Of a stretch of 25,300 nucleotides of DNA, positions 1-24,673 are shown piece after piece. Position 1 is the stretch's first letter. The number at the start of each line of letters is the position of its first letter. The stretch spans positions 1 to 25,300 of IMG/VR virus record IMGVR_UViG_3300044730_000325; one strand, 5' to 3'. The translations under genes and the position numbers were made by a program. The notes beneath the pieces are model-generated. The model saw only the letters and a program-made list of their open reading frames with translations, was not told the DNA's origin and searched no databases. The DNA is from a virus.

Positions 1-777
1 GTCCTTGACCAGCATCAGCTTCTTGGCCTCATCGCCCACGCGCTCAAGCACCCACTCGCGCATCTTGGGCGAGCGCACGCTGGTGATCTCACCGTCGGTC
101 AGCTCGGCCACGCGCTCCTCGATCTCGACGAGCTCGTCGTGAGCGTAGCGCATGGCGGCCTTGGCAAGCGGCACGTCCACCAGCACGCCACGGTCGTTGA
201 TGCGCTCGTTGACGTGGTAGTCGGCCAGCTCCTCGGCTGACAGCGGGCGCATGGCCTTGGAAACGGCTCGCATGGCCCGCACGTCGGTTTCGCAGTACTG
301 GATCATCTCGGCCATCAGCGCCGCGTCCTCGCGGAAGGTGCCATCAGCCTGAGGAATCGACAGCAGCCGGATGAGCTGCGCGCCTCGGTGGTCCTTCTTC
401 ATGCTGACGCTGGCGAAGCGCCCCACATCCTCAAGGCTGCCAGGCGCACAGTTGGCTCGGGCCTGCGTGGCGGTGCAGTAGAACTGCTCAAGGTCGAAGT
501 TGATCTGTAGGACGTACCAGAAGATCAGACGCTCGAACGCCGCGTTGTGGGCGTAGATCATGCCGGTGTGATTGGCTACAGCCTCGGGAAAGGGCGAGTC
601 GTTAAGCCACATCACACCGTCGGATGTGTACTTGGGCACCCACGTCTGCACCTCACCGTCGTCGAAGGCGTAGGACATGCACAGCACTTCGGTGCTCATG
701 TCCTGCGCGTAGTTGTAGACGCCCTTGGCGCCGAGGTCTACTCGGCTGCGCGTCTCGAAGTCAACCCAGAGGATCAT
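1..777 (-). CDS. DNA polymerase, family A (Pol I-like), N-terminal part
   Basis: Replicative DNA polymerase of the phage. The window holds the first 259 residues and the gene continues beyond position 1. The N-terminus is a DEDD-type 3'-5' proofreading exonuclease: WVDFETR carries the exo I acidic pair (D6, E8), YAHNAAFE at 75-82 is exo II, and YCETDV at 161-166 is exo III with Y161 and D165. From about residue 193, INDRGVLVD marks the usual linker into the polymerase domain, which lies outside the window. The start codon ATG at 777 directly follows a T-run and a GC-rich hairpin (786-829), and there is no Shine-Dalgarno at normal spacing; the nearest G-rich stretch is in the hairpin loop. It is the last visible gene of the leftward replication block, after the nuclease and the possible ssDNA-binding protein. 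Family assignment is firm; the start is slightly uncertain. Confidence 0.9.
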   Translation of the reverse strand, partial: MILWVDFETRSRVDLGAKGVYNYAQDMSTEVLCMSYAFDDGEVQTWVPKYTSDGVMWLNDSPFPEAVANHTGMIYAHNAAFERLIFWYVLQINFDLEQFYCTATQARANCAPGSLEDVGRFASVSMKKDHRGAQLIRLLSIPQADGTFREDAALMAEMIQYCETDVRAMRAVSKAMRPLSAEELADYHVNERINDRGVLVDVPLAKAAMRYAHDELVEIEERVAELTDGEITSVRSPKMREWVLERVGDEAKKLMLVKD

Positions 778-838: not shown

Positions 839-1474
839 TCAGGCCGAGCGACGACGACGGCCAGCAGCGGGCGCTGCCTCAGCAGCCGGCTCGGCCTCAG
901 CCTCGCCGTCCATGCTGACCCACTCCACGACCTCGAACACGGGCGTATAGATACGACCGTAGCTCTTGTGGGTGTAGTGGTCCTTGCCCAGCTTCACGAC
1001 CGGCACCGGCTTGGACTGGTCCTTCTCCACTTGCGCGGCGATGGCGACAGCCAAGGTCTGCACGGCCTTGCGGCCACCGACCGAGGTGGTCGTGAACCGC
1101 GCCTCAAGCCCAGCGTCCTCGCCGCTGATGCACTTGAGGCTCAGGCCCGTCTGCGGCTCCCAGCCCTTCTTTGCGCCGTGAGGCGCTGCGTCCTGCTCAG
1201 GCAGAGGCTCGGTGACGGGCACCAGCTTCTCACCAAGCACCTCGCCGTCGCCCCAAGCAATGAAGCCGTGGACGAACGAGAAGGGATTGACCGCCCAGCG
1301 GGCGTCGTCCTCGGCCTCGGTCTGGTCAGCGCCAAAGACCCAGTGCCCCGTGCGGTCCATCTTGATGATGGCCGTGGTCGAGGCGCTGACATCGGTGGCG
1401 ATGCTGCGAAGCGCGGTGGACAGGGAAGTGACAGACGGCAGGTTAGCGCCAGAGAACTTTACGATATTGGACAT
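839..1474 (-). CDS. Putative ssDNA-binding / replication accessory protein
   Basis: Protein of 211 residues between the Cas4-like nuclease and DNA polymerase, the place where phages commonly encode a single-strand DNA-binding protein. I recognise no decisive OB-fold motif, so the role rests mainly on context, on a protein body rich in beta-type residues and on a low-complexity tail. The tail is Ala/Glu-rich but ends in the basic run GRRRRSA, unlike the acidic tip of bacterial SSB. The ATG at 1474 was chosen because a GGAG lies six bases upstream. An ATG at 1486 overlaps the upstream stop (TAATG), would add four residues and has a poorer ribosome-binding site. It is translationally linked to the nuclease gene. 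It could also be another nucleoid or recombination accessory protein. Confidence 0.6.
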   Translation of the reverse strand: MSNIVKFSGANLPSVTSLSTALRSIATDVSASTTAIIKMDRTGHWVFGADQTEAEDDARWAVNPFSFVHGFIAWGDGEVLGEKLVPVTEPLPEQDAAPHGAKKGWEPQTGLSLKCISGEDAGLEARFTTTSVGGRKAVQTLAVAIAAQVEKDQSKPVPVVKLGKDHYTHKSYGRIYTPVFEVVEWVSMDGEAEAEPAAEAAPAAGRRRRSA

Positions 1475-1485
1475 GTGAAACTCCA

Positions 1486-2592
1486 TTACAGTTTAGAAAG
1501 GGCCTTTGACAGCCCGATGAACGACTGCACCGCTGGCCGGGGATCATCCACCGGGGCGAGCGTCGTGCCCGACGACACTGCCACAACAAGTAAGTCGGGC
1601 AGCGCCACCTTGCTCTTTTTGAGCTCTTTCTCCGCTTGTGCTGGAGAAATAGTCTCACCTTTAAAAGGGTTGACACCTTGGCTGTCCAGCCATTTGATGG
1701 CGGCCAGCTCATCGACCCACTGACGCCGCGCTTGCTTCTGGACTATCTTGTAGCCAGGCACATCAGCGCCCTTCTCAAGCAGCCCAAAAGCAAGCGCACG
1801 CAAATCTTTGATCCAGTCTTCAAGGAGGTCGGCAGTATGCAGATACTTAGCCAGCGTGTCAACGTCCATGTTGATGACCTGCTGCTTGATCGCGCGGTCC
1901 ACAGCGCCGGTCATTTGCGGGCAGATCGGCTTGGCCGCGCACCAGCGGCAGTGATCGCCCTGCGCCAGCGGCGCGTCGTCACGCAGCGCGGTCTTGACCG
2001 CAGCCACCAGCTCATGCTCGAACTGCTTGATGCGCCCCACGGTCGTCACCCAGCGCCGCACGACAGGCGGCTGCACGATGACGCACTCGATCTCGTCAAC
2101 GCCGTCGAACGCCCACTGCAGCTCATCGGTACGCATGGCCGCTGCGGCGTAGAACATGAGCTGCGCGTTCTCTACAGCATCAACGACAACACCGTCGCCA
2201 AACTTCCAATCAAGGACCACAGCACGCTGACCAATACGCCCAACAAGATCAGTGCTGCCAAACACTCCAGGCAGAAGATCGCCGAAACCAACGCGTGTCT
2301 CCACCTCGTATACCAAGTCACCGTGGGGATCGACCTCGTCGAGCGCGTCCAGGGCAGGCGTAATCTTCTCATCATATAGCTCCTGTGTGAGCAGTTGATC
2401 CTTGTGTTTGAACTGGCCGATGACGACACCCTGATCAAGCAAGATGCGGCTGATGACGTCATGCAGCATAGTGCCGCGATCAGCGTGAACGCTGGACGGC
2501 TGTGGGGGCATCTTCTGCACCAGCTTCACCGAGCCAGGGCAAGAGATGACGCGCTTGGCGGTGCTACCGCCGACGATGTTACTGTGCTGCAT
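1486..2592 (-). CDS. Cas4/RecB-like PD-(D/E)XK nuclease (DUF2800-like)
   Basis: A 368-residue nuclease probably acting in phage recombination or replication-end processing. Visible family features, in order: Cys18 in an SCPGS motif, RGTMLHD with His44, the catalytic GSTD (D115) and LDWK (D128, K130) motifs, AQLMFY (Q144, Y148), then a cysteine cluster C215-x2-C218-x5-C224. One N-terminal plus three C-terminal cysteines is the arrangement that binds a 4Fe-4S cluster in Cas4/AddB-type nucleases, so an iron-sulfur cluster is inferred. The gene lies just upstream of the ssDNA-binding-like gene and overlaps it by one base at most. Its start overlaps the preceding small gene by 14 bases, which points to coupled translation. 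No cas1 or cas2 is present, so this is a phage replication enzyme and not part of a CRISPR system. Confidence 0.85.
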   Translation of the reverse strand: MQHSNIVGGSTAKRVISCPGSVKLVQKMPPQPSSVHADRGTMLHDVISRILLDQGVVIGQFKHKDQLLTQELYDEKITPALDALDEVDPHGDLVYEVETRVGFGDLLPGVFGSTDLVGRIGQRAVVLDWKFGDGVVVDAVENAQLMFYAAAAMRTDELQWAFDGVDEIECVIVQPPVVRRWVTTVGRIKQFEHELVAAVKTALRDDAPLAQGDHCRWCAAKPICPQMTGAVDRAIKQQVINMDVDTLAKYLHTADLLEDWIKDLRALAFGLLEKGADVPGYKIVQKQARRQWVDELAAIKWLDSQGVNPFKGETISPAQAEKELKKSKVALPDLLVVAVSSGTTLAPVDDPRPAVQSFIGLSKALSKL

Positions 2593-2794
2593 CGCGGGCT
2601 TTCAGCATGGCGTCGGCTGTTGCATATGATTCCGCAGCAATGCGCTGCAAAACGCCTTCGTCAAGACTGCCCCCATCGCGAGCAATCGACCCCAACATCG
2701 CCTTAGCCGCGAAGTAGTCGCGCAAGGTCATGCCTGTCGTTTTTGGCTCGTGCAGGTGCTCGATGGTGTGCGGGAAGGCCGGTATGTCTGTCAT
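2579..2794 (-). CDS. Small conserved phage protein, first gene of leftward operon
   Basis: A 71-residue protein of unknown function containing GMTLRDYFAAKAM and a C-terminal helical stretch AESYATADAMLKARD, a pattern I recognise from many small phage early proteins. The ATG at 2794 has a GGAG ribosome-binding site seven bases upstream. That site lies in the 16-base sequence repeated, in mirror image, before the rightward gene at 2907. An upstream in-frame ATG at 2830 would lie inside the -10 region and is unlikely. As promoter-proximal gene of the nuclease/polymerase operon it should be among the first made. No catalytic motif is visible. Confidence 0.75.
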   Translation of the reverse strand: MTDIPAFPHTIEHLHEPKTTGMTLRDYFAAKAMLGSIARDGGSLDEGVLQRIAAESYATADAMLKARDAAQ

Positions 2795-2825
2795 GTCTGT
2801 ACTCCAGTTGATTGATGAGGACTGC

Positions 2826-2855
2826 ATCATAACACAGAAAAAATTGTTTGCACAA
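2826..2855 (-). promoter_or_regulatory. Leftward sigma70-like promoter (early operon 1)
   Basis: On the minus strand: -35 TTGTGC (2850-2855), 18-base spacer, -10 TATGAT (2826-2831). It would start transcription about 25 bases before the ATG at 2794. Its -35 overlaps the rightward -35 by four bases, so RNA polymerase probably cannot occupy both promoters at once. The match to host consensus is good; activity is inferred. Confidence 0.65.
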
Positions 2856-2876
2856 AAGTTTTTTACCCGTTATGAT
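2848..2876 (+). promoter_or_regulatory. Rightward sigma70-like promoter (early operon 2)
   Basis: On the plus strand: -35 TTGCAC (2848-2853), 17-base spacer, -10 TATGAT (2871-2876). Each box is close to the bacterial housekeeping consensus and the spacing is ideal. It drives the chain of small genes that begins at 2907. It is mirrored by the leftward promoter within the same palindrome. Confidence 0.7.
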
Positions 2877-2906
2877 GGCGGCTCGATTAATCAACTGGAG
2901 TACACG

Positions 2907-3080
2907 ATGGACGAGTTTTACATCCGCACCTTGCCCGGCGAGGCAATGATGGTAGACGCCTCTGACAAGAACGGCGCTATCTGGCTGACCATCTCCGTTA
3001 TGCGCGGGCGGGTCAGCACCGTGCTGACCAAGGAGCAGGCGCGGGAGCTGATTTTTGCACTGCAACAGGTGGCCGCATGA
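2907..3080 (+). CDS. Small phage protein, first gene of rightward early operon
   Basis: A 57-residue protein of unknown function with a mixed alpha/beta look (YIRTLPGEAMMVDA, then a C-terminal helix KEQARELIFALQQVAA). The ATG at 2907 follows GGAG (2897-2900) by six bases, within the 16-base leader shared in mirror image with the opposite operon. Its stop overlaps the next gene by ATGA. It is promoter-proximal, which in phages often means an early host-takeover or regulatory factor, but nothing in the sequence proves that. Confidence 0.7.
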   Translation: MDEFYIRTLPGEAMMVDASDKNGAIWLTISVMRGRVSTVLTKEQARELIFALQQVAA

Positions 3081-4373: not shown

Positions 4374-4652
4374 ATGAAAGAGTCAACAATTGAAAAGTAC
4401 TTTGTCGCCCAGGTCAAGGCCGCTGGCGGCATCGCGTACAAGTTCACCAGCCCAGCGCACCGAGGCGTGGCTGACCGCGTGGCGTGCCTGCCCGACGGCA
4501 GCACTTGGTTCGTCGAGCTGAAAGCGCCGGGCGGTCGGCTGTCTGAATTGCAAAAAATTTTCCAGTCCGACATGGCGCGGCTGCGTCAGAACTACGCCTG
4601 TCTATGGTCAAAGGAGCACGTTGATGGATGGATTAACAGCCTTGCCGGCTAA
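4374..4652 (+). CDS. VRR-NUC domain nuclease
   Basis: A 92-residue stand-alone VRR-NUC protein, a PD-(D/E)XK nuclease of the kind that in related families cuts branched or Holliday-type DNA. Conserved residues are visible in order: an N-terminal acidic helix (ESTIEKYF), GVADR with D34, FVELKAPGG with E48 and K50, and Q60. The size is normal for the minimal phage form. It sits two genes before the SNF2 helicase; a VRR-NUC next to an SNF2-type helicase is a known phage pairing, which suggests a joint role in processing replication or recombination intermediates. The ATG at 4374 was chosen because the homologous region begins there and the upstream DNA encodes the tiny membrane protein. Its ribosome-binding site is weak. 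Confidence 0.88.
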   Translation: MKESTIEKYFVAQVKAAGGIAYKFTSPAHRGVADRVACLPDGSTWFVELKAPGGRLSELQKIFQSDMARLRQNYACLWSKEHVDGWINSLAG

Positions 4653-4938
4653 GTACTTCGCCGTCGGCCCGTACCGTGCCGAGCAGGTCGGCCCGACATG
4701 GTGGGGCGTGATGAACAAAAACGGCGTCAACGTGCTGACGTTCGCCGAGAAGCGCGGCGCTGTGGTGACCGATGAGGCGCACGCCAAGCAGATCGCCGAC
4801 GAGTGGAACCAAACTACAGAATTCGTGTACCCGCCCGATCCGTATGTGCCGCCAGTCACGCAGCGCATGACCGACGAAGAGATGACTGCGTACATCCAAA
4901 GCCGGCGCTACAACTGGGAGACAAAAAGGTGGAGCTAA
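4624..4938 (+). CDS. Conserved phage protein between VRR-NUC and helicase
   Basis: A 104-residue protein. The first half (AKYFAVGPYRAEQVGPTWWGVMNKNGVNVL) looks like a small beta-sheet with a helix ending IADEWN. The second half has a proline-rich stretch YPPDPYVPP and an acidic helix DEEMTAYI. It overlaps the end of the nuclease gene by 29 bases and the helicase start by 10, so it is made together with them and may assist them. The ATG at 4624 has AAGGAG about eight bases upstream. No known domain is recognised. Confidence 0.7.
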   Translation: MDGLTALPAKYFAVGPYRAEQVGPTWWGVMNKNGVNVLTFAEKRGAVVTDEAHAKQIADEWNQTTEFVYPPDPYVPPVTQRMTDEEMTAYIQSRRYNWETKRWS

Positions 4939-6209
4939 GACCCTATCAAAATGAAGCGGCTGACTTCCTGTACGAGCACGACCGCGCCATGATCCTGGCG
5001 CCGGTCGGCGCGGGCAAGACGGCGATCACGCTGACGGCCATGCGGGACATGATCTTCGACAGCGATTACAAGCGTTGGCTGGTCATCGCCCCGCTGCGCG
5101 TCGCCACCAGCGTCTGGCCGCAGGAGCAGCCCAAGTGGGCGCCGCAGATCAAGATGGCCGTGGCCTGCGGCACGCCAACGCAGCGTCTTACCGCGCTTTA
5201 CAGCGGCGCTGATGTCGTCGTTACCAACTACGACAACCTGCAATGGCTGGCCGGGCAAGACCTAAGCACCTTCGACGGCGTGGTGTTCGACGAGCTGACG
5301 CGCCTGAAGAACCCATCGGGCGCCAGGTTCAAGGCGCTTGCCAAGGCGCTCGACTGCCCGATCCGCTGGGGGCTGACCGGCAGCTTCACCAGCAACGGCT
5401 TGGAGGACGTGTTCGGGCAGTGCAAGATCATTGATCAGAAGCTGCTTGGCCGCAGCAAGGGCGCGTTCCAGCAGCAATACTTCTACCTCGTCAACAAGGA
5501 CTACAACGACTGGCAGCCGCGCCCCGGCGCGCTGGAGCAGGTCATGGCCCGGATCAAGCCGGCCACCTTCGTGCTGGAGCCAGGCGAGTACAAGGACAAG
5601 CTGCCGCCGCTGCACACGGTCGAGGTGCGGCTGGACCTGCCCGACCGCAAGCCGTACGAGGACATGAAGAAGGACTTCGTGACGCGCTTCCCGGACGCGA
5701 CTGCGGTGGCGATCAACGCCGCCGTGGTGACGCAAAAGCTGTCGCAGATGGCCGCAGGGTTCGTCTACACGCCAGAGCCGGTCTGGTTCAGCAGCCACAA
5801 GTTCGACCGGCTCGAAGAGCTGCTGGCCGAGAACCAGCAGGCCAACACGATTGTCTTTTACAACTTTGTCGAGGAACTCCATGAACTCAAGCGACGTTTT
5901 CCTTACGCCCGAACGGTTGACAGCATTGATGACTGGAACGCCGGACGAGTACGCCTTCTATGCCTGCACCCGCGATCCGCCGGGCACGGGCTCAACCTCC
6001 AGCACGGCGGCCACCACATCGTCTGGCTCAGCCTGCCCTGGAGCCTTGAGCTGTTCGAGCAGGCCAACGGACGGCTGCACCGATCAGGGCAGCGCCACGA
6101 CGTCTGGTGCTACGTCATGATCGCCAACCAGACGGTCGATGAAAAGATATGGACCGCGCTGCACAGCAAGCAGGCGGTCAGCGACATTGCAATGGAGAGT
6201 CTGAAATGA
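4929..6209 (+). CDS. SNF2-type superfamily 2 DNA helicase/translocase
   Basis: A 426-residue ATP-dependent DNA translocase of the SNF2 branch. With the chosen start, the motifs are LRPYQ (Q-like, 3-7), Walker A APVGAGKT (24-31), Ia VIAPLRV (52-58), Ib VVVTNYDN (96-103), a motif II of DELT (121-124) in place of DEAH, III GLTGS (148-152), V SAGHGLNLQ (350-358) and VI QANGRLHRSGQ (378-388). Both RecA lobes are complete. GTG at 4929 is preferred because GGGAG lies eight bases upstream and the protein then begins at the conserved LRPYQ. An ATG at 4803 would add 42 residues that only shadow the previous gene. It probably remodels replication or recombination DNA with the VRR-NUC nuclease. Confidence 0.9.
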   Translation: MELRPYQNEAADFLYEHDRAMILAPVGAGKTAITLTAMRDMIFDSDYKRWLVIAPLRVATSVWPQEQPKWAPQIKMAVACGTPTQRLTALYSGADVVVTNYDNLQWLAGQDLSTFDGVVFDELTRLKNPSGARFKALAKALDCPIRWGLTGSFTSNGLEDVFGQCKIIDQKLLGRSKGAFQQQYFYLVNKDYNDWQPRPGALEQVMARIKPATFVLEPGEYKDKLPPLHTVEVRLDLPDRKPYEDMKKDFVTRFPDATAVAINAAVVTQKLSQMAAGFVYTPEPVWFSSHKFDRLEELLAENQQANTIVFYNFVEELHELKRRFPYARTVDSIDDWNAGRVRLLCLHPRSAGHGLNLQHGGHHIVWLSLPWSLELFEQANGRLHRSGQRHDVWCYVMIANQTVDEKIWTALHSKQAVSDIAMESLK

Positions 6210-13246: not shown

Positions 13247-13582
13247 TTAAGTCACTTCGCGTCCACTGACGCGCATGTTGATGGCGCTGGCAGTTCCAGC
13301 AATTGTACTGATGAAGTCGCCGATGCCAAGCACTTGGCCCACCAGTTCGGGGAAGGTGTACACCTCGGACGCCTGAAGCGTCTTGGTCTTGGTAATCAAG
13401 TTCTGATTGCCCGCCGAGCCAGCAGCCGTGACGAGGTTGACGCTGATCGTCGCGGCGCTGGCGCTGTAGTTCGTTGCGGTGAACTTGTCGATGATGGTCG
13501 TCACGCCAGTCGCGGTGTACTGGGTGGTTTGAGTGTTCTCGACCGTTTTGGCCGGAACGAGGACTTTGACTGAAACGGTCAT
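13247..13582 (-). CDS. Small structural protein, unknown role
   Basis: A 111-residue protein rich in Thr, Ser, Ala and Val with alternating beta-type residues (SVKVLVPAKTV, TQYTATGVTTIIDKFTATNYSA, ISVNLVTAAG). A closing motif, LQASEVYTFPELVGQVLGIGDFI, follows. It looks like a small all-beta virion protein, perhaps a decoration or tail accessory. It lies between a fibre/needle-like protein and the ejection proteins and has a good GGGAG site. No specific family is recognised. Confidence 0.65.
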   Translation of the reverse strand: MTVSVKVLVPAKTVENTQTTQYTATGVTTIIDKFTATNYSASAATISVNLVTAAGSAGNQNLITKTKTLQASEVYTFPELVGQVLGIGDFISTIAGTASAINMRVSGREVT

Positions 13583-13584
13583 GA

Positions 13585-14664
13585 CTAGACTCCCTGTAGT
13601 GTCGGCACAGAGGCTATCGACACAGTTAATATGACTGACGGCGTGGCCGGGCGAACTGGTCCAGTTTTTGCAGCAATGTACTCAATTGTAGTGGAGGTGT
13701 CAGTAGTTGCCCACATCAACTCAATGTATTCGTCAGCGGCTAAATCGACGAACAGGTTTAGCGCGCCGATTAAGTGCCCGTCTGTGCCGCCGTGCCGATT
13801 GGGCACGGAAAACTGGCTGTTAGTGTCAGGCACATCCACGCCGTTTTTACGCATCCAAATATCGGTGTCGTGGATGTTGTTGTCGGTGTTTACAAATTGA
13901 ACGCTGAACTGAATGTTGTACGTCCCGGCAATCTCACACCTGACTTTGGACTTGCAGGTGCCGGTGATGGTCGTAGACGCTACGGTCTGCGACACGCTGA
14001 CCTGATAGGTGCCGGTGCTGCCGTCCGTGCCAGTCAACTGAGACACGATGCGAGTTCCAGCCGTAACGCCGGTGCCCGTGATCACCATGCCAGGGTAGAT
14101 TGGCCCGGATGTGATCGCTGTCACCGTCATGGTGGTCGTGGCAATCGACGCAGTGAACACGGCTGTGCGGTCTTCTATCGTGACGTTTTTGCTGAACTGC
14201 GTGGTGTCGTACAGCAGCGGGTACGCCGTAGTCGTCGAGCCGTCAGGCTGGTTGGCCGTGCTGTAAAAGGAGCCGTATACAAACTGCGGAATCTGCGGCG
14301 TGGTAATCGGCGCAGACTGAAGTGCGTCGATCTGCTTTTGCATCTCGGCTATCTGCGACACCAAAGCCGAGCAGCAATCTGCCAACGCTGCTGCTTGGAT
14401 TTGCTTAGTCAACTCATCGCTCAAGTCAACCGCAGGTGGCAGCGTCTGCAACTCCTGCCGCACGGCGTCGAGCGAAGCCTCAAGAGACGCAATCGTTGAC
14501 TCGGCGCTGAACGTAAGCCCTGAGTCGTCAATGATCGCCGTGGCCGCGTTGTTGAGCGACAGGAAAAACAAGTACCAAGCCCTGTCGATCAACCCCGTGC
14601 GGGGGTCGATCAACGGCACCCGTGGCGGGGTGATTGGCGTCGGCGTCGCGTTAGGGCTAGGCAT
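13585..14664 (-). CDS. Fibre/needle-like virion protein with C-terminal jelly-roll and inserted domain
   Basis: A 359-residue protein. The N-terminus is Pro-rich with [22 protein letters not shown], an anchor pattern seen in phage fibre-like proteins. A coiled-coil region follows (about 55-118, [14 protein letters not shown] and [10 protein letters not shown]). From about 130 comes a beta-rich domain whose end ([11 protein letters not shown] through [14 protein letters not shown]) resembles C1q/TNF-like jelly rolls. A Thr/Gly-rich segment at about 169-236 ([17 protein letters not shown] and similar) appears inserted within that fold. A trimer linked by the coiled coil is likely. It directly follows the gp10-like gene, overlapping it by eight bases, the place where P22 encodes its tail needle gp26. 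Exact function is inferred. Confidence 0.65.
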
Positions 14665-16096
14665 TCGTTGGACTCAGAATCAACTCTGCGCCCATGATGC
14701 TGATCTTGACCGGATCGGTGCCCGATAGCTCATAAACGCGGTCGCGCAGCTTCAGGGTCATGCCCATGCGCCGCCAGAACACCCGGCGGTAGTATTCGCC
14801 GATCTTGCCGATCTGCGCCCAGTGCTCGTTGCCCCATGTGTGGCCGCCGTCGTCCGACCAGCGCAGCATGACCTCGGGGTTGCTGCCTTGGCCCAGATTC
14901 AGGCCAGTACCGGCCTCAATGTCCAGTTGCAGGCTGTGCTGCGCGGTGCGTTTGAGGTTGTTCTGGCCGGTAGGCAGCGCCCGCCACGACCGCAGCCACT
15001 TTTGAATCTGGCCGTTGTCCGAGTAGTCGTCCAGATCAAAGGCGTAGATGTTGCCATTTTCGTAGTCGCCAACAACGATCTTGTTGTTGAACGCCATCTG
15101 GCAGTTGCTGCGGTGCCGGGTGAACTCGCCGTTGCTCCAGCCAGCCCGCTCGTGCCAGGCTTGGGTGGCGGCGTCGTAGACCCAGGTCGTGTTGGCGCTC
15201 GGGAAGATCAGCACATAAAAGCTGTGGCCGTCTTGCTGGTAGGTGTACGCGATGGCGTCCGACAGATCGCTGTACTGCTGAATCTGCCACTCGACGGCGT
15301 GGGTGCTGATGCGCTGGCCGGTGTAGCCGTTGGCCCGGTAGACCATGCCTTGGCCCCGGCGGTCACGCCCAAGCCAGAACAAGGCGTTGTCCATCTTGGC
15401 AACCGAAAACGGGGCCGCGCAGCCCAGCTCGTTAAACGCGCCTTGGATGCGCTGAAGCGGGAAGTCGGTTGCGCCGGTGTCGTACCAGACCTCAATTGAG
15501 TTGGTGCCAAAGGCCCAGATTTCGCGGAAATTAGACGCCACGGCAACCAGCCCGTCAGGCGAGCCCTCGGTGCTGGCAAACTCTAGAGGGTCAATCGACG
15601 TGCCGTCCAGCAGCGCCGTGATCCACATCTTTTGGCTGTTGGGCTCGTTGAAGACGAAGTAGCCGTCGAGATACGCCACGGTCACGGCGCCGGGAAAATC
15701 CGGGTCGGTGATCTGCCCAAAAGCGTTGGTCGTGTTGTTGTAGATGTAGCTCGGGCCGTTGGCCGCGATGAAAAGCTGCGTGCCGTTGTCGGCCATGCTG
15801 ACCGGGCCAGTACCTGCCACGGTGCCCAGCAGCGTCGGCGCGTAGCTGTTGTTGATCTTGTAGAGCTGCGTGCCCGACACCACGAAGCCGGTGCCGTCTT
15901 GCGGCGAGAAGGCCCACAGGCCACGGATCGGGCCGGTGCCAATAGAGTTAAGCAGCTTCAGTCCCGGAGCACGGTTCAGGAACGCCGGCTCCTTGCCCGC
16001 CTCGGGCACGATCTCGGGGAACAGGTTGACCATGCGGGCGTCGGCAGCGTTGACGCTGCGAGCCACATAGGTCGAACCAAGGATCGGCGTTTTCAT
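14657..16096 (-). CDS. Packaged-DNA stabilization protein, P22 gp10-like
   Basis: A 479-residue beta-rich hub protein that should close the portal vertex after DNA packaging and hold the tail. It starts [27 protein letters not shown], a familiar start of this family, and contains repeated short strands such as [31 protein letters not shown] and [11 protein letters not shown], with a C-terminal [12 protein letters not shown] segment. Length agrees with P22 gp10 (about 470). It lies directly after the gp4-like gene, as in P22, and overlaps it by one base. The family call is supported by both sequence pattern and gene order. Confidence 0.85.
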
Positions 16097-16827
16097 CAGT
16101 AGTTACCGGCATAGATGTTGTACCGCTGCCGCGTGGCAATCAGCGAATACGGCATCGACATCACATCGTCCGGGTTGTTGATGCGCTTGAGGTTGCGCTT
16201 GCTGTACATCGCAATGCGCTGCACTTGGGGGCTTGGCTCGATGCCAAACTCCGGCGCGATCTCGCAGGCCAAGTTGTAGGTAAACGCCCGCAGGTAGCCT
16301 GGCGGGAACAGAATTTGGGTGGACAGATTGGCCGGCTGCGTCAGCTCTTGGACGCTGATGAAGTGAAACTCCAGCAGCCGCGTCGGGCGCGGGTAGATGA
16401 AGATGTCAAAGTCCGGGTAGGTGTTGTTGACGAACATCACCTGCGGGTACGTCGAGGTCACGGTCTTGACCGCGATGCCATCGTACTGCTGCTGGTTGAT
16501 TAGCTTGATGCCGTATGACACGCCAGTGCCGGGGTCTTTGAAGTAGGTGGCGTCGTCCACCAGAATCGGGCGTACAGCAGTGCCATTGAGCCGCACCAGC
16601 GAGCCGCTGGGGCCAAGGGTTGCGTTGATTAAGCCAACCGGCCAATTGCAAATCTGGTCGATGGTGGCAAAGACAGACAGGCGCTCGGTATTCCACGAGT
16701 CAATCATCTGATTTAGCGCCATCAGGGAGTCCTGAGACACTGAGGCCGACGACGTTTCGCCCTCGGCTAGAACGCCTAGCAGCCGCAACGCCCGGTTAAT
16801 CTGTTCGCCTGCGGTGTAGGTCGTCAT
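16096..16827 (-). CDS. Head-to-tail adaptor / head-completion protein, P22 gp4-like
   Basis: A 243-residue protein that should bind below the portal after packaging. The N-terminal helices (AGEQINRALRLLGVLAEGE and SLMALNQMIDSWNTERL) are typical of gp4-type adaptors, followed by a mixed region with FKDPGTGVSYGIKLI and the conserved-looking FPPGYLRAFTYNLACEIAPEFG helix near the C-terminus. It is longer than P22 gp4 (166 residues), as common in related phages. The gene sits between the decoration-like genes and the gp10-like gene. A GAGGAA site inside the previous gene precedes the ATG. Confidence 0.85.
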   Translation of the reverse strand: MTTYTAGEQINRALRLLGVLAEGETSSASVSQDSLMALNQMIDSWNTERLSVFATIDQICNWPVGLINATLGPSGSLVRLNGTAVRPILVDDATYFKDPGTGVSYGIKLINQQQYDGIAVKTVTSTYPQVMFVNNTYPDFDIFIYPRPTRLLEFHFISVQELTQPANLSTQILFPPGYLRAFTYNLACEIAPEFGIEPSPQVQRIAMYSKRNLKRINNPDDVMSMPYSLIATRQRYNIYAGNY

Positions 16828-16828
16828 G

Positions 16829-17023
16829 CTATTCCTCTTCGTCCTTCTTGCGCCGCCCGCGCCGAGGTGCAGGTGCTACCTCAATTTGCGGCTCGATCTG
16901 AGGCGCATCTTGTTCCTCAGGATTGTAGCGTGACCAGCCGTTTTGAACATCAAAATCGGCTTCCAAATCCATCACGGCAACTTTAGCGCCGTGGACGGGG
17001 TGTGTCAGGTAGATTGCGGCCAT
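16829..17023 (-). CDS. Small protein with charged tail
   Basis: A 64-residue protein. The first part (MAAIYLTHPVHGAKVAVMD) looks like two short strands, followed by an acidic segment and a Pro-rich, strongly basic then acidic tail (APRRGRRKKDEEE). Similar small proteins lie next to head-completion genes in related phages, but no function is known to me. The ATG at 17023 was chosen; a GTG at 17041 would lie in the hairpin before it. No clear ribosome-binding site is seen, so translation may depend on reading through or on the hairpin. Confidence 0.65.
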   Translation of the reverse strand: MAAIYLTHPVHGAKVAVMDLEADFDVQNGWSRYNPEEQDAPQIEPQIEVAPAPRRGRRKKDEEE

Positions 17024-17032
17024 AGAGTAAGA

Positions 17033-17051
17033 CGGGGGCACGAAGCCCCCG
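17033..17051 (-). terminator. Hairpin 3 after coat region (weak terminator or mRNA end)
   Basis: On the minus strand CGGGGGC and GCCCCCG form a 7-bp stem around a TTCGT loop, six bases after a stop codon. The following bases (TCTTACTCT) are only partly T-rich. Together with two similar hairpins upstream it may trim or stabilise mRNA or end part of the transcripts. Confidence 0.5.
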
Positions 17052-17056
17052 CCAAT

Positions 17057-17473
17057 TTAGTTTGCAGACATGACGACCCAGTCAGTCCCGTCACAAACGA
17101 GCATCGCAAACTTACCAGCAGTGTTGGCAAGGATGGCGGTGCCGGCCGTGTTGGAATTGAGGGGTTTCACGTTGGTTGCAGCAGAGTTGACTGCCTGAGC
17201 CGCAATCGTCTTGATCCAAACCACGCGGCCAGTGCTGGCCGAAGCGGTCGGGAACGTGACGGAAATTGCGCCTGATCCATTGCAAACAACGAAGTTTTCG
17301 GTGTCACCCAGAGTGAACGAAGCGGTCTTGATAACCGGCGCGTTCAAATCCAGTTGCGTACCGCTGAGAGCGCCAGTGGTGGTAACTGACGCAGCGGTAA
17401 CCGCGCCAGTGACTGTTACCGACTCGAACTCCGGGTCAGCAAACGCGACGCCTACTGCTTTAGTATTTGGCAT
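17057..17473 (-). CDS. Decoration-like small capsid protein (second of two)
   Basis: A 138-residue, Thr/Ala/Val-rich all-beta protein. It contains ESVTVTGAVTAASVTTTG, a central ISVTFPTASASTGRVVWIKT segment and a C-terminal KFAMLVCDGTDWVVM. Position two genes after the coat protein, small size and composition suggest a protein that binds the capsid surface or a fibre, but no known decoration family is certain. The ATG at 17473 has AAAAGGA upstream and directly follows a hairpin; in-frame codons farther upstream only shadow the preceding gene. It may be related in fold to its neighbour. Confidence 0.65.
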   Translation of the reverse strand: MPNTKAVGVAFADPEFESVTVTGAVTAASVTTTGALSGTQLDLNAPVIKTASFTLGDTENFVVCNGSGAISVTFPTASASTGRVVWIKTIAAQAVNSAATNVKPLNSNTAGTAILANTAGKFAMLVCDGTDWVVMSAN

Positions 17474-17485
17474 GATATGTCCTTT

Positions 17486-17510
17486 TAAAAACAGGAGGCC
17501 GAAGCCTCCC
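17486..17510 (-). terminator. Hairpin 2 after coat region with T-run
   Basis: On the minus strand GGAGGC pairs with GCCTCC around a TTCG loop (17494-17509), a G-T pair extends the stem, and GTTTTT follows (17486-17491). This is the best terminator-like structure of the three. It lies between a stop codon and the ribosome-binding site of the next gene, so it probably works as a partial terminator. Confidence 0.6.
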
Positions 17511-17516
17511 GTTAGC

Positions 17517-17945
17517 TTAGACGCGGTACAGAGTCCAAGTCGTGTCGCTGGTTTTACGAGCGATAAACGAGGCCGAAGTACCATCGTTGATGGCCAGCGA
17601 ACCGACAATCGTCCAGCCCGTGCCAGTGCCAGCGGCCATGGTGATGTCGCCGGTCGAGGTGCCAATGTTGACCACCACCCAGTTAAAGGTGCTGCCAACT
17701 TTAGCACTGGAGACCAGATCGTTCACACCAGTGACGCCGCCTGCTGTAACCACGATAGGCATCGTGTAGGTCGTAGCAGTGGTGCCAGGATTGGCGATCA
17801 GAATACCGCCAGTTACTTCAGCAGCCGTCAGGGTGACAGCGGAAGTGCCAGTTTCAGTAGTAGGGGCGGGCAAGTAGCCGATGACGGGTTCGTTGAGGTT
17901 GCCGTCGCCGACTTGATAGCCGCCTGCGCCATTAGGGAGAGCCAT
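17517..17945 (-). CDS. Decoration-like small capsid protein (first of two)
   Basis: A 142-residue protein rich in Thr, Gly, Val and Ala. It has a Pro/Gly-rich N-terminus (ALPNGAGGYQVGDGNLNEP) and a beta-type body (GGILIANPGTTATTYTMP, FNWVVVNIGTSTGDITMAAG). The end is SASFIARKTSDTTWTLYRV. It is the gene directly after the coat protein, the usual place for phage decoration or head-stabilising proteins. The ribosome-binding site AAAGGAA follows the coat hairpin. The role is inferred. Confidence 0.65.
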   Translation of the reverse strand: MALPNGAGGYQVGDGNLNEPVIGYLPAPTTETGTSAVTLTAAEVTGGILIANPGTTATTYTMPIVVTAGGVTGVNDLVSSAKVGSTFNWVVVNIGTSTGDITMAAGTGTGWTIVGSLAINDGTSASFIARKTSDTTWTLYRV

Positions 17946-17977
17946 GATAAATTCCTTTCAAAAAGTTACGAATTGAA

Positions 17978-17991
17978 GCCCCCGAAGGGGC
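17978..17991 (-). terminator. Hairpin 1 directly after coat gene
   Basis: On the minus strand GCCCC-TTCG-GGGGC forms a 5-bp stem with the very stable C(TTCG)G loop, eight bases after the coat stop codon. TTC and AATTCG follow, with a T-run only 12 bases later, so it may stabilise the coat mRNA as much as terminate it. Confidence 0.5.
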
Positions 17992-17998
17992 GTCAAAA

Positions 17999-19198
17999 TC
18001 AACCCCACATCCGAACGCCCATCTGGGGACGGATGGTGCTGTAGCCGTACAGAACGTCAATACGGCAGGGCATACGATCATTGTTGATGTCGTACTGGCG
18101 CACCACACGCAGGCTGATGCCATTGTGAACGGCGCGGGCGGCCATGTCCACACCTTGCGGCAGGAGCAGGTCGGCGGTTGCGAAGGTGATCGCGTCCTTG
18201 TGGTACACCAAGTTCTGGGCGTACTGGCTGGACGGAGCGCCAACGAACACGACAGCCTTGTTGTTGCCAGGCAGAGCGGTCATGGTAGCCAGTGCATGGC
18301 TGGCCGAGTACATCGGAGCCACGGTCACGGTTGCAGTGGTGGTGGCGGTCGAGGAGGCCAGAGCCACGAACTGGAACAGCGAACCGGTTGACTCACGGGT
18401 CTGCGGGTTCACAGCGTAGACATCAGCGATGGTGAACACGTCACCAACAGCGATGGTGTCGCCAGAGCCAACAGTCAGGGTCAACGTAGCAGCGCCTTCG
18501 GCAGTCACGGCAGCGGCGGTAACCACGCCAGTAGCAGCGCGGGAGCCGGTGGTGTGCTGCTTGATCGACTGAGACATGTTGATCTCGTCGAAGCCCAACA
18601 CGCCCATGCCCATCATGCCGTTCTTGAACTGCTTGCTGATGGTGTCGGTGGGGTTGAAGAGACCCTTCATGCCCTCGACCAGACCAGCGTTGGCAGCCGG
18701 GTTGACGGTTGCGTAGCGCGGGCTCATCACAGCAGCGTTCTCGTTGAGCTTCTGCTGGGCTTGCAGCAAAACCAGCGAGGTAGCGGGCGTGGTGCCAGGG
18801 GTGCCGACGGAGTTACCGATGCTCTTGTAAGCGTTGGCAACGTCAGCGTCGATGCTCGATGCCAACTGGCTGATACGAGGCTTCAACACACGCTCTGCGA
18901 AGTCGTCCAACTGCATGGTCAGTTCGGCAGACGTGAAGTTCACGCCGATGTGCTTCTGCGAAGCCACAGTCAGGGTGGTGAACTGCTCGTTGTCGTCCTG
19001 CACTTGCAGGGCGGCGCCGTCGGTGACCAGAGCGCGGTCAGGCAGACGGATACGCAGGGTCGAACCAATCTTGGCACCTTCAACAGCAAAGCTGTCGTCG
19101 TACTGACGGTTCACGTTACGGGTGAGCACGAGGTTGTTCTCCAGAATCTCCAGAGCCTTCCGCGTGATCATGTCAATGGTAAGAATGCTATTAGCCAT
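17999..19198 (-). CDS. Major coat protein, P22 gp5-like
   Basis: A 399-residue capsid protein of the P22 coat family. Start MANSILTIDMITRKALEILENNLV is characteristic; the following segments fit the HK97 core: N-arm, an FTTLTVASQKHIGVNFTSAELTM strand region, a long spine-like helix FAERVLKPRISQLASSIDADV, and PRYATVNPAANAGLV. An all-beta stretch at about 222-300 with GDTIAVGDVFTIADVYAVNP probably corresponds to the inserted I-domain. Length is close to P22 gp5 (430). It follows the scaffold gene and is preceded by AAAGGA. A near-consensus promoter sits before the scaffold, so both should be highly expressed. Three hairpins follow the gene. Confidence 0.92.
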   Translation of the reverse strand: MANSILTIDMITRKALEILENNLVLTRNVNRQYDDSFAVEGAKIGSTLRIRLPDRALVTDGAALQVQDDNEQFTTLTVASQKHIGVNFTSAELTMQLDDFAERVLKPRISQLASSIDADVANAYKSIGNSVGTPGTTPATSLVLLQAQQKLNENAAVMSPRYATVNPAANAGLVEGMKGLFNPTDTISKQFKNGMMGMGVLGFDEINMSQSIKQHTTGSRAATGVVTAAAVTAEGAATLTLTVGSGDTIAVGDVFTIADVYAVNPQTRESTGSLFQFVALASSTATTTATVTVAPMYSASHALATMTALPGNNKAVVFVGAPSSQYAQNLVYHKDAITFATADLLLPQGVDMAARAVHNGISLRVVRQYDINNDRMPCRIDVLYGYSTIRPQMGVRMWG

Positions 19199-19217
19199 TT
19201 CGGCGGTCCTTTCAAAG

Positions 19218-20009
19218 TTAGCGGTTCATTTGTGCTTGCAGCTTCTTCATCTGCCGGGCACGTTCAGCTTCAATCCACTGCGAGTCAGTCATGGTCTTCG
19301 TCGAGCGAGGATCAGTCGTGTCGTAGGACGAACTTCCACTGGTGCGTGCGGTAACAGGCGAAATAGGCGCAGGCGCAGACGTAGTCGGTTTCACAAGAGG
19401 ATTGGAGCCAAGTTTGGCCTCAATCTTCCCAATCTCTCGGGCCTGCAAAAGAGGTGCCAAGCGGGAAATGCGATCAGCTTCCTTCGGGTTGGTTCCCAGC
19501 CAGTAGGCTAGGTCCGGCCCCATGTCGGACGCCTTGATTGTCTCGGCCATCACGTCAGTGACTCGAAGCTGCGGGTTGTAGGCGACTTGTTCGAAGTCGT
19601 CGTACTTGGCCCTGGCCTCTTCCTCACGGTCGTGGTAAGCGTCGTTAATCTCAGCCTGCTGCCGTTGGAACTCACGCTGTGCAAGCAGTTCTTCAGCCTT
19701 TTTGACGGCCAACGCTTCCGCGTAGGCATCAGGGGACTCAAACTGGTCGATAGGCGGGACTTCTCTTGGCGCTTGCGGTTGGGCAAGTTTGGCCTGCTGC
19801 TCACGTTCCCATTTGCGCTGCTCTCTGGCAAGGCGCTTGCTGATCATCGCATCGATCTCGGCCTGGGTGAATTTCTTCTCCTCGGGCGTCTGCTCGGGTT
19901 GACTCTCAGCTACTTCCGGCGCGTTTTGTGCATTCTCCGGGGCGGCCGTCGCCTCGGGTGCTGGCGCGGATTCAACTTCCGCTAAGGCTTGTTGGACTTC
20001 TTCAGTCAT
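19218..20009 (-). CDS. Scaffolding protein
   Basis: A 263-residue, highly charged protein that should guide coat assembly and then leave the head. The N-terminal 45 residues are an acidic Ala/Pro/Glu-rich tail. A long helical region follows (TQAEIDAMISKRLAREQRKWEREQQAK to about residue 150), then a Ser/Thr-rich linker and a basic C-terminal helix (QWIEAERARQMKKLQAQM) of the sort that binds the coat in P22 gp8. Position directly before the coat gene and length (P22 gp8 has 303) support the call. The leader after the promoter carries a small hairpin just before the ATG. Confidence 0.85.
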   Translation of the reverse strand: MTEEVQQALAEVESAPAPEATAAPENAQNAPEVAESQPEQTPEEKKFTQAEIDAMISKRLAREQRKWEREQQAKLAQPQAPREVPPIDQFESPDAYAEALAVKKAEELLAQREFQRQQAEINDAYHDREEEARAKYDDFEQVAYNPQLRVTDVMAETIKASDMGPDLAYWLGTNPKEADRISRLAPLLQAREIGKIEAKLGSNPLVKPTTSAPAPISPVTARTSGSSSYDTTDPRSTKTMTDSQWIEAERARQMKKLQAQMNR

Positions 20010-20013
20010 TTTC

Positions 20014-20027
20014 GATTCTTGTGAATC
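20014..20027 (-). promoter_or_regulatory. Small hairpin just before scaffold start codon
   Basis: On the minus strand GATTC-ACAA-GAATC makes a 5-bp stem four bases before the scaffold ATG. The only Shine-Dalgarno-like bases (AGGGA) partly lie within its upstream arm, so folding may set scaffold translation. The stem is short and its effect is inferred. Confidence 0.35.
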
Positions 20028-20055
20028 CCTGGTCTACCGGGCCAGTACAGTTCTC

Positions 20056-22192: not shown

Positions 22193-24673
22193 TTAAAGTT
22201 TCAAAACCCAAACTTGCCAAGTGCCACTTGCCAAATTAACGGGCGCGCCTGTGTTGTTATCAACGCGGATCCGAACGGAATTTCCACTATCTACATACGC
22301 TGTGGCAGTCATGCCTTGCAAATCGTATGGGGCAGCAACAATTACAGGATTGCCAAACGCCGCATAAGTAACATTGATGGACGGTGATGTTTCACCGCTA
22401 CCACTTGCAATGCTGCCCGGATTCCACACCACAGAACCAGGCACAGTGGTAATCATGTTTTGTGCAAAATCCGTTGTTCCGTAATCCGAAACACGGTAGG
22501 TATGCACAAAATTTGTAAAGGCGTCGTTTTTATTGCCTGTAATGTTGATTTGATTCGCCGTAGCAGTGCCAGCAGCGGGGCCAGAACCATCGTCATTGTT
22601 TAACAACCACAAGTCACCCGAAACCGCAGGGGTGTTGGTGAACACGTTGTTCATAATTTCAGCATTTGTGAAATTGAACATACAACACTCACCGATGGTT
22701 TCGACTGAATTGTGGCTGAACGCTTGGGCGCCGTAAGCCATGTAGATTGACCACTGAGTCGGGCCGTTGGCAGTGACGTTGTAGATGCGGTTGTAAACCG
22801 CCCGACATGACCCGTTTGCGGAATATAGCGCGGTTTCAGCGCCATCAATGTAATTGGCCTCCACCAACGCCTCGTAGCCCGCAGTACCCGCAATGTAAAT
22901 CGCTGCCAGCGTGTCAGTGATGGTGTTGTCTTTGATCGTCATCGAGTCGCCATCGCTGATGCGAATGCCAGCCGTAGCATCATCAATGACGTTGCCGAGA
23001 TAGGAGTTGTTCAAGAAACGAGCGACCGCGCCTGTACCTGACACACGAATGCCAATCTTGTCGTCCGTTGAGTAAGACGCGCCTTTTCCGAGGCCGGTAA
23101 TGACATTTTCGCTGATGGTCAAGTTGGCGCCGTTCTGCACAAACACGCCAAAATTAGTGCCGCCCGAACAAACGATTTTGTTGTGGCTGCAAATGGAGTA
23201 ATCGGCTTGAATAGGCGCAAAATATTGGCTGGCTACCGGCGGGTCGTCGTGCCCCAGCACCACGGCCATCAGCGTAGGGTCAACAAACTCGTTGTCGTTG
23301 ATTGTGCAGAACGTGGTGTTGATGCCAACGCACGAAGTGGTTTCCCAGTACGTCCCAAAGTAGTTGTAAGAGATGTCGTGCCGAGCGCCGCCAACAGACT
23401 CGACAGGGCTGGAATTGCCATAGATTGAGTAGTTGTTGCGGAAATAGCATTGTTCGCTTTCTGCAATGAACAGCGATGAGCAACGCTCAAACCGAGAGTC
23501 CACAATTCCGCACCGTTGGCTGCGAACAAAAAACACCATCATTGTGTACGGATGGTGGTTAGCCTGAGTCATCGCATCAATGAGCCTGCAATTTTTGACT
23601 ACGCAGTTCACCGCATCTTCAAAACGCACCACATTGAATTCGGACACGGCCATTTCAGCGGGCGACAAGACATTCCCGTCACGATTTACATTGACGGTCA
23701 GGTTCTCAATAATGATGTTGAAATATGTCGGAACACCTGTGCCAATGCGCCAAAAACCAACCTCGGGGCGAGAGGTCACATTTACAGTTGTAAATAAGGC
23801 GTAAAAATGAGTGATTCCACCATTCCAGTTCAATGGGTTGATGTTGATAACTGCGTTGTATTGCCCGTATATGTGAACATTGCTTGGCGTTAAAATTTCC
23901 CCGCTGACCAAATAAGTTCCCGATGGGAAAATTACCTGACAACCGTTTGGTAGCGTACCCGCGTAGGTAACTGCATCTTGAATGGCAATTGTGTCATCCG
24001 CTACACCATCGCCAACAGCGCCAAAGTCTTTGACGCTGATGTATTGCGCCAGTTTGGCCTCAACATTGGTCGGCACAGACCCCGTAAACGGCGGCTGATA
24101 TGACACCTGTTGCGCGTCTACAGCGCCGCCGCCTTGCAACTGACTTGTAGTGAACTTGACCTCGGCGCCGACGTGCAGGCCAGACACAAACGTTACTGTG
24201 TCAGCGTCAGTCTCAAGGTAAGCGTATTGGGCGCCGGGGCCGTACTGATTCACGCCGTCCACAAACACCGATAAGCTGTTCGTGCCAGGCTGATAGCTGA
24301 TGCCAAGGTTGAACACCGTCTGACCTGCGGTGGCCGTGACGATCTCTTGCTGGTTGACAAACGCAACGAAGTTGCTGTTGATGCCGCTGATGTTGTCGTA
24401 GGTGGCGATCAGGACGTCGTTGGCATCTTTGAGCAAGAACTTGTACAGGATGCCATCGGTTATCCAAATCTCACCACCGCCAGAAACTCGGCCAGCAGCA
24501 TCTAGCACGATGGGGTTGGTCCACTGAACATTACCCTGAGACGACGTGTAGGCGGTTGCAGGCGTGGTGGTGCCTGCCAAGTAGGTAAACAGCTTGCCGC
24601 CCGTCAGGACAGCACCGGTGTTGGTGAAGAACTGGGCCGCAACGCCGCCCACTGGGGAAAGATTGACGGCCAT
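22193..24673 (-). CDS. Large tailspike with head-binding domain and beta-helix
   Basis: An 826-residue tailspike. Residues 1-110 (TGAVLTGGKLFTYLAGTTTP, then IVLDAAGRVSGGGEIWITDG) form the P22-like head-binding type of domain that fixes spikes to the virion. A linker domain (111-190) with VNLGI-type strands follows. ISVKDFGAVGDGVADDTIAIQ at 212-232 is the classic start of the pectate-lyase-like beta-helix, with many later N-x-I/V turns (NNVFTN, NDNEFVD, ISENVITG, IKDNTITDT). The C-terminus (about 720-826) is a separate beta domain. It should recognise and possibly cut a host surface polysaccharide; the enzyme type cannot be told from sequence alone. It is the first spike gene of the cluster. 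Confidence 0.85.
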   Translation of the reverse strand: MAVNLSPVGGVAAQFFTNTGAVLTGGKLFTYLAGTTTPATAYTSSQGNVQWTNPIVLDAAGRVSGGGEIWITDGILYKFLLKDANDVLIATYDNISGINSNFVAFVNQQEIVTATAGQTVFNLGISYQPGTNSLSVFVDGVNQYGPGAQYAYLETDADTVTFVSGLHVGAEVKFTTSQLQGGGAVDAQQVSYQPPFTGSVPTNVEAKLAQYISVKDFGAVGDGVADDTIAIQDAVTYAGTLPNGCQVIFPSGTYLVSGEILTPSNVHIYGQYNAVININPLNWNGGITHFYALFTTVNVTSRPEVGFWRIGTGVPTYFNIIIENLTVNVNRDGNVLSPAEMAVSEFNVVRFEDAVNCVVKNCRLIDAMTQANHHPYTMMVFFVRSQRCGIVDSRFERCSSLFIAESEQCYFRNNYSIYGNSSPVESVGGARHDISYNYFGTYWETTSCVGINTTFCTINDNEFVDPTLMAVVLGHDDPPVASQYFAPIQADYSICSHNKIVCSGGTNFGVFVQNGANLTISENVITGLGKGASYSTDDKIGIRVSGTGAVARFLNNSYLGNVIDDATAGIRISDGDSMTIKDNTITDTLAAIYIAGTAGYEALVEANYIDGAETALYSANGSCRAVYNRIYNVTANGPTQWSIYMAYGAQAFSHNSVETIGECCMFNFTNAEIMNNVFTNTPAVSGDLWLLNNDDGSGPAAGTATANQINITGNKNDAFTNFVHTYRVSDYGTTDFAQNMITTVPGSVVWNPGSIASGSGETSPSINVTYAAFGNPVIVAAPYDLQGMTATAYVDSGNSVRIRVDNNTGAPVNLASGTWQVWVLKL

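Follow-up and report, generated by a model that had tools for sequence, protein, structure and literature searches.

The window analyzed here, a 25.3-kb IMG/VR virus record, derives from a freshwater, podovirus-like phage. Two operons with replication genes lie head to head around a short intergenic region (Table 1). The rightward operon begins with P0001, followed by further small genes, a gene for a VRR-NUC-like nuclease (a weak match), and an SNF2 helicase gene, while the leftward operon carries a small gene, the exonuclease gene, and the polymerase gene. Neither P0001 nor the 71-aa protein on the opposite side had a Pfam match. The predicted P0001 fold is β4-α (pLDDT 88); in a comparison with solved structures it had no significant relative, the resemblance to Pur-alpha repeats being weak and nonsignificant. 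Many uncharacterized phage proteins have a similar predicted fold.

Table 1. Features of the divergent promoter region and its flanking operons
Feature	Position	Strand	Remark
Conserved symmetric core: A-tract, TTGCACAA (reverse complement TTGTGCAA) at 2848–2855, T-tract	2838..2866	.	Relatives' core motif and invariant columns
−35-like box TTGCAC, rightward promoter	2848..2853	+	17-bp spacer
−10 box TATGAT, rightward promoter	2871..2876	+	Inferred start ~2883
−35-like box TTGTGC, leftward promoter	2850..2855	−	18-bp spacer
Extended −10 TGTTATGAT, leftward promoter	2826..2834	−	Inferred start ~2819
16-nt leader arm AATCAACTGGAGTACA with Shine-Dalgarno, rightward operon	2889..2904	+	Sequence
Identical 16-nt leader arm, leftward (exonuclease/polymerase) operon	2798..2813	−	Sequence
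P0001, 57-aa small gene	2907..3080	+	Homologues on either promoter side by clade; predicted β4-α fold
71-aa small gene, phrog_2201-like, function unknown	2579..2794	−	Presence accompanies symmetric leader
PD-(D/E)XK exonuclease (DUF2800, phrog_69), core gene of leftward operon	1486..2592	−	
phrog_9528 protein (annotated nucleotidyltransferase), leftward operon	839..1486	−	
DNA polymerase (phrog_17), leftward operon	1..777	−	Truncated by window end
VRR-NUC-like nuclease, rightward operon	4374..4652	+	Weak match, below Pfam cutoff; coordinates from translation
SNF2-type DNA helicase, rightward operon	4803..6209	+	

The intergenic region forms a 107-bp imperfect palindrome (positions 2798 to 2904) centered on position 2851, in which 38 of the 53 opposed positions are complementary. 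Its arms (2798–2848 and 2854–2904) are 75% complementary, and their outermost 16 positions (2798–2813 and 2889–2904) pair perfectly; just two exact copies of this 16-nt leader arm are present in the window. The runner-up 53-pair palindrome in the whole window has 31 pairs, and 300 dinucleotide shuffles of the surrounding 200 bp yielded a maximum of 28 pairs, with a mean of 22.4. Thus, the palindrome is real and far above chance. The first-pass annotation had reported the same pair count and perfect 16-base arms, and both were confirmed by our recount, the window scan, and the shuffles.

Two predicted promoters face away from the center of the palindrome, the leftward −10 hexamer TATGAT occupying positions 2831 to 2826 of the minus strand within the extended −10 element. 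A distance of 40 bp separates the two −10 boxes, and one of 64 bp the predicted transcription starts. The −35 boxes, which lie on opposite strands, share the four base pairs at 2850–2853, exactly the overlap proposed earlier, which gives a predicted pair of overlapping divergent promoters. The earlier description of two good σ70-like promoters stands for the TATGAT boxes but was overstated for the −35 boxes: each matches TTGACA at three of six bases, and a consensus scan reported the plus-strand promoter alone. The support for the two predicted promoters is their conservation among relatives, not their match to the consensus.

An exonuclease search retrieved 80 related loci in viral contigs plus one contig binned as Rhodoferax, and about 50 relatives with distinct halves were compared after alignment on the core. 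Where the upstream sequence was long enough, almost every locus has the A-tract, TTG(TG/CA)CAA, and the T-tract, flanked on both sides by a −10-like box, and core positions are among the invariant alignment columns. The core includes both −35 boxes. Spacers range from 16 to 18 bp on the divergent side and are 17 to 18 bp in 46 of 51 relatives on the exonuclease side. Of 27 possible pairs in the core half, almost every clade A locus forms 16 to 19, and loci outside clade A mostly form 10 to 18. This conservation of the boxes in about 50 relatives supports the proposed divergent pair with overlapping −35 boxes. The annotated podovirus record MW202483.1, whose exonuclease is 52% identical, shares the head-to-head gene arrangement and retains TTGCACAA in a short gap, the symmetry of which is at chance level. 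The divergent layout is not universal in phages with these genes: Bordetella phage BPP-1 has its exonuclease, polymerase, and helicase genes in a single orientation. No annotated phage record matched the region in a nucleotide search, and phage DSL-LC05 is without the tract-flanked core.

The tract-flanked core, together with its promoter boxes, was found once per genome, at this locus, in all seven of the near-complete relatives checked; on this ground, we reject a repeated phage promoter motif with several copies per genome. A scan of viral contigs with a 15-mer of the leader returned mostly unrelated chance matches; those adjoining a core all have the same promoter layout.

We consider it probable that one host-type RNA polymerase promoter region, used in either orientation, expresses both replication operons. 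A single shared divergent promoter, likely read by the host σ70 RNA polymerase, would direct the exonuclease and polymerase genes leftward and the small genes, the VRR-NUC-like nuclease gene, and the SNF2 helicase gene rightward. The near-palindromic TTG(YR)CAA would serve as the −35 contact for both directions, and each A/T tract would fall within one promoter's spacer and, for the opposite promoter, at an upstream (UP-like) position. Because the −35 word is shared and only 64 bp would separate the starts, simultaneous occupancy appears unlikely, and mutual exclusion of the predicted promoters is plausible from their geometry. RNA polymerase would then bind in one orientation at a time, and the operons may be coexpressed by alternation with no dedicated switch. 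Two points count against a shared promoter: the −35 boxes match only half of the consensus, and in a subgroup of relatives (L013 and its kin) the core TTCGCGCAA makes a poor −35.

This subgroup (L013 to L019, L023, and L028) has TTCGCGCAA in place of TTGTGCAA; the −35 is poor for the exonuclease direction, yet the core is conserved there. Such conservation is what would be expected if TTG(YR)CAA and the A/T tracts were mainly an operator for a dimeric phage or host regulator of both operons, with the promoter overlap being secondary. The central 8-mer is also a near-perfect dyad that persists in both YR orientations from clade to clade, and the invariant columns of the alignment include its positions. 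Against an operator, there is one such site per genome and a second was not found; no regulator gene was identified adjoining the core, where P0001 and the 71-aa gene lie; and the predicted P0001 fold is not a helix-turn-helix. The fold neither supports nor excludes P0001 as a regulator. On balance, we regard a primary operator role as unlikely and favor the shared promoter.

The conservation of the core does not extend to the mirrored arms, which are limited to relatives whose exonuclease side begins with a small gene on a ATCAACTGGAGTACA leader. Of 26 possible pairs in the arm half, 20 to 23 are formed only if the leader TCAATCAACTGGAGTACAGACATG and a small gene come first on the exonuclease side, about 8 to 16 where the exonuclease gene directly follows another leader (e.g., CTCAACAACTACAGGAGAGTTCAGTG), and mostly 6 to 14, roughly the chance level, in clade B and outside. 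Locus L003 has an exonuclease 98% identical to that of the window and no symmetric arm. On the clade A tree, the symmetric-leader state changes seven times, with at least four changes forced by well-supported branches. The relatives thus retain the core and the two −10 boxes but not the matched set of mirrored leaders. The first-pass annotation had held that asymmetric gaps between the same genes in related phages would speak against its mirrored promoter; close relatives with the same operons do have asymmetric arms, but the symmetry of the core survives. In locus L026, the core lies at position −37 from the exonuclease start, the start codon directly follows TATGATGAGCACC, and the exonuclease gene is seemingly leaderless.

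The comparison of relatives also bears on two other explanations of the inverted arms. They might be kept for a hairpin in read-through or antisense RNA, or for a DNA cruciform, controlling translation of both operons. Folding of the 107-nt strand gives a very stable structure (−42.7 kcal/mol; z = −8.6), but this stability is a trivial consequence of the palindrome. Over 18 relatives there was no covariation (80.9% paired versus 80.7% after shuffling, with as many pair types in 490 of 500 shuffles), arm pairs are broken in about 10 of the 18, and the leaders of the two normal transcripts are identical, not complementary, to each other. A structured-RNA test detected neither compensatory changes in the 18 relatives nor an Rfam match. 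With arm symmetry lost in many relatives that have the same two operons, the earlier suggestion that the arms pair as RNA is not supported, and a hairpin or cruciform function is very improbable. Promoters flanked by perfect inverted arms could likewise mark a phase-variable segment that inverts by recombination at the two 16-nt arms. In almost all clade A relatives, however, the exonuclease half has a TGTG/CGTG-type spacer and the divergent half a CCCG/CTCG-type spacer, and swapped halves were not found among them; no recombinase was identified among the genes searched in the 25.3-kb window fragment. Inversion of the segment is accordingly hard to credit.

The P0001 family offers another origin for the mirror. 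Of 62 distinct rows, the family is on the divergent side in 31 and on the exonuclease side in 11, the former position being that of clade A and the latter that of clade B, and cross-side blastp comparisons reach E values as low as 4e-9. In clade B, the exonuclease-side P0001-type gene has the leader CTCATCAACTA(A/C)AGGACAGTCAAATG. When clade A divergent leaders were compared to these clade B exonuclease-side leaders, the mean local score was 16.6, versus 9.9 for shuffled sequences, while clade A divergent leaders showed no resemblance to clade B divergent leaders (8.5, versus 8.1 shuffled). Two changes suffice to explain the divergent-side state of the family on the exonuclease tree, compared to 20.8 with shuffled labels; this tree is midpoint rooted with one long outgroup, and the direction of the switch is therefore not proven. 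We infer with good support that a unit of leader and ~57-aa gene switched sides, in inverted orientation. The change of sides would leave both operons with the same ribosome-binding leader and so make the whole 107 bp look palindromic. The homology between leaders on opposite sides is limited in length, and convergence on an effective Shine-Dalgarno leader could contribute to it. The duplicated and inverted leader cassette of the first-pass annotation is thereby upheld in the form of a leader-plus-gene unit, found on opposite sides in clades A and B.

In several clade B loci (L062, L064, L065, L073, L077, and others), the divergent gene starts about 1 base past the predicted transcription start (TATTAT, then TCGGGCTATG), which suggests that clade B divergent genes are mostly expressed from leaderless mRNA.

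More tentatively, the shared promoter may act as a two-sided docking hub, with the identical leaders as short recombination joints at which promoter-proximal accessory genes are swapped in, out, and across sides. As part of the same tentative proposal, swapped genes would always receive a working promoter and ribosome-binding site. A hub fits the gene turnover on both sides, the side switch of the P0001 family, and the repeated gain or loss of the symmetric leader.

In the lambda PR/PRM switch, back-to-back promoters flank a symmetric region, a pair of repressors acts on repeated operators, and the two directions serve lysogeny and lysis genes. The present element similarly has predicted back-to-back phage promoters around a symmetric region; unlike PR/PRM, its core occurs once per genome in the seven relatives checked, no repressor pair was found, and both directions lead to replication genes. 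The Pr/Pc promoters of the conjugative plasmid pLS20 are also overlapping and divergent; their −10 and −35 boxes are proposed to coincide crosswise, and RcoLS20 acts there as a regulator (PMC4207663). In both systems, opposed σ-type promoters share DNA, which would hinder simultaneous use by polymerase, whereas in the phage the overlap comprises the −35 boxes alone, both promoters would serve replication operons, and no regulator gene was identified next to the core. As in the bidirectional promoters described by Warman, Grainger, and colleagues, the DNA is pseudosymmetric and polymerase could bind in two ways (PMC12825309, PMC10268837). Warman-type promoters, however, share the −10 element, with starts 7 to 25 bp apart, usually 18 (PMC10268837), whereas the phage element shares the −35 region. 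With its −10 boxes 40 bp and its predicted starts 64 bp apart, it is thus not of the Warman type. In Escherichia coli bidirectional promoters, competition appears solely at raised activity (PMC12825309). Our literature search, which covered few subscription journals, turned up divergent promoters that overlap, but no report of a phage element built in this way. The mirrored phage promoter is a variant of ordinary overlapping divergent promoters, not a new type of switch.

The locus illustrates a route to a mirror-symmetric promoter, in which a conserved symmetric −35 core is combined with a leader-plus-gene unit that would have crossed sides. It also offers a compact natural system for studying how polymerases compete at overlapping promoters, both of which would serve phage DNA replication, and is a candidate site for the exchange of small accessory genes among phages.

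Elsewhere in the window, the virion genes at 13250–20051 match phage DSL-LC05 with 78% DNA identity, while the replication region is without a DNA match, a discrepancy that suggests module exchange. Positions 22193 to 24673 encode an 826-aa protein with a pectate-lyase-like domain, which is likely a tail spike.
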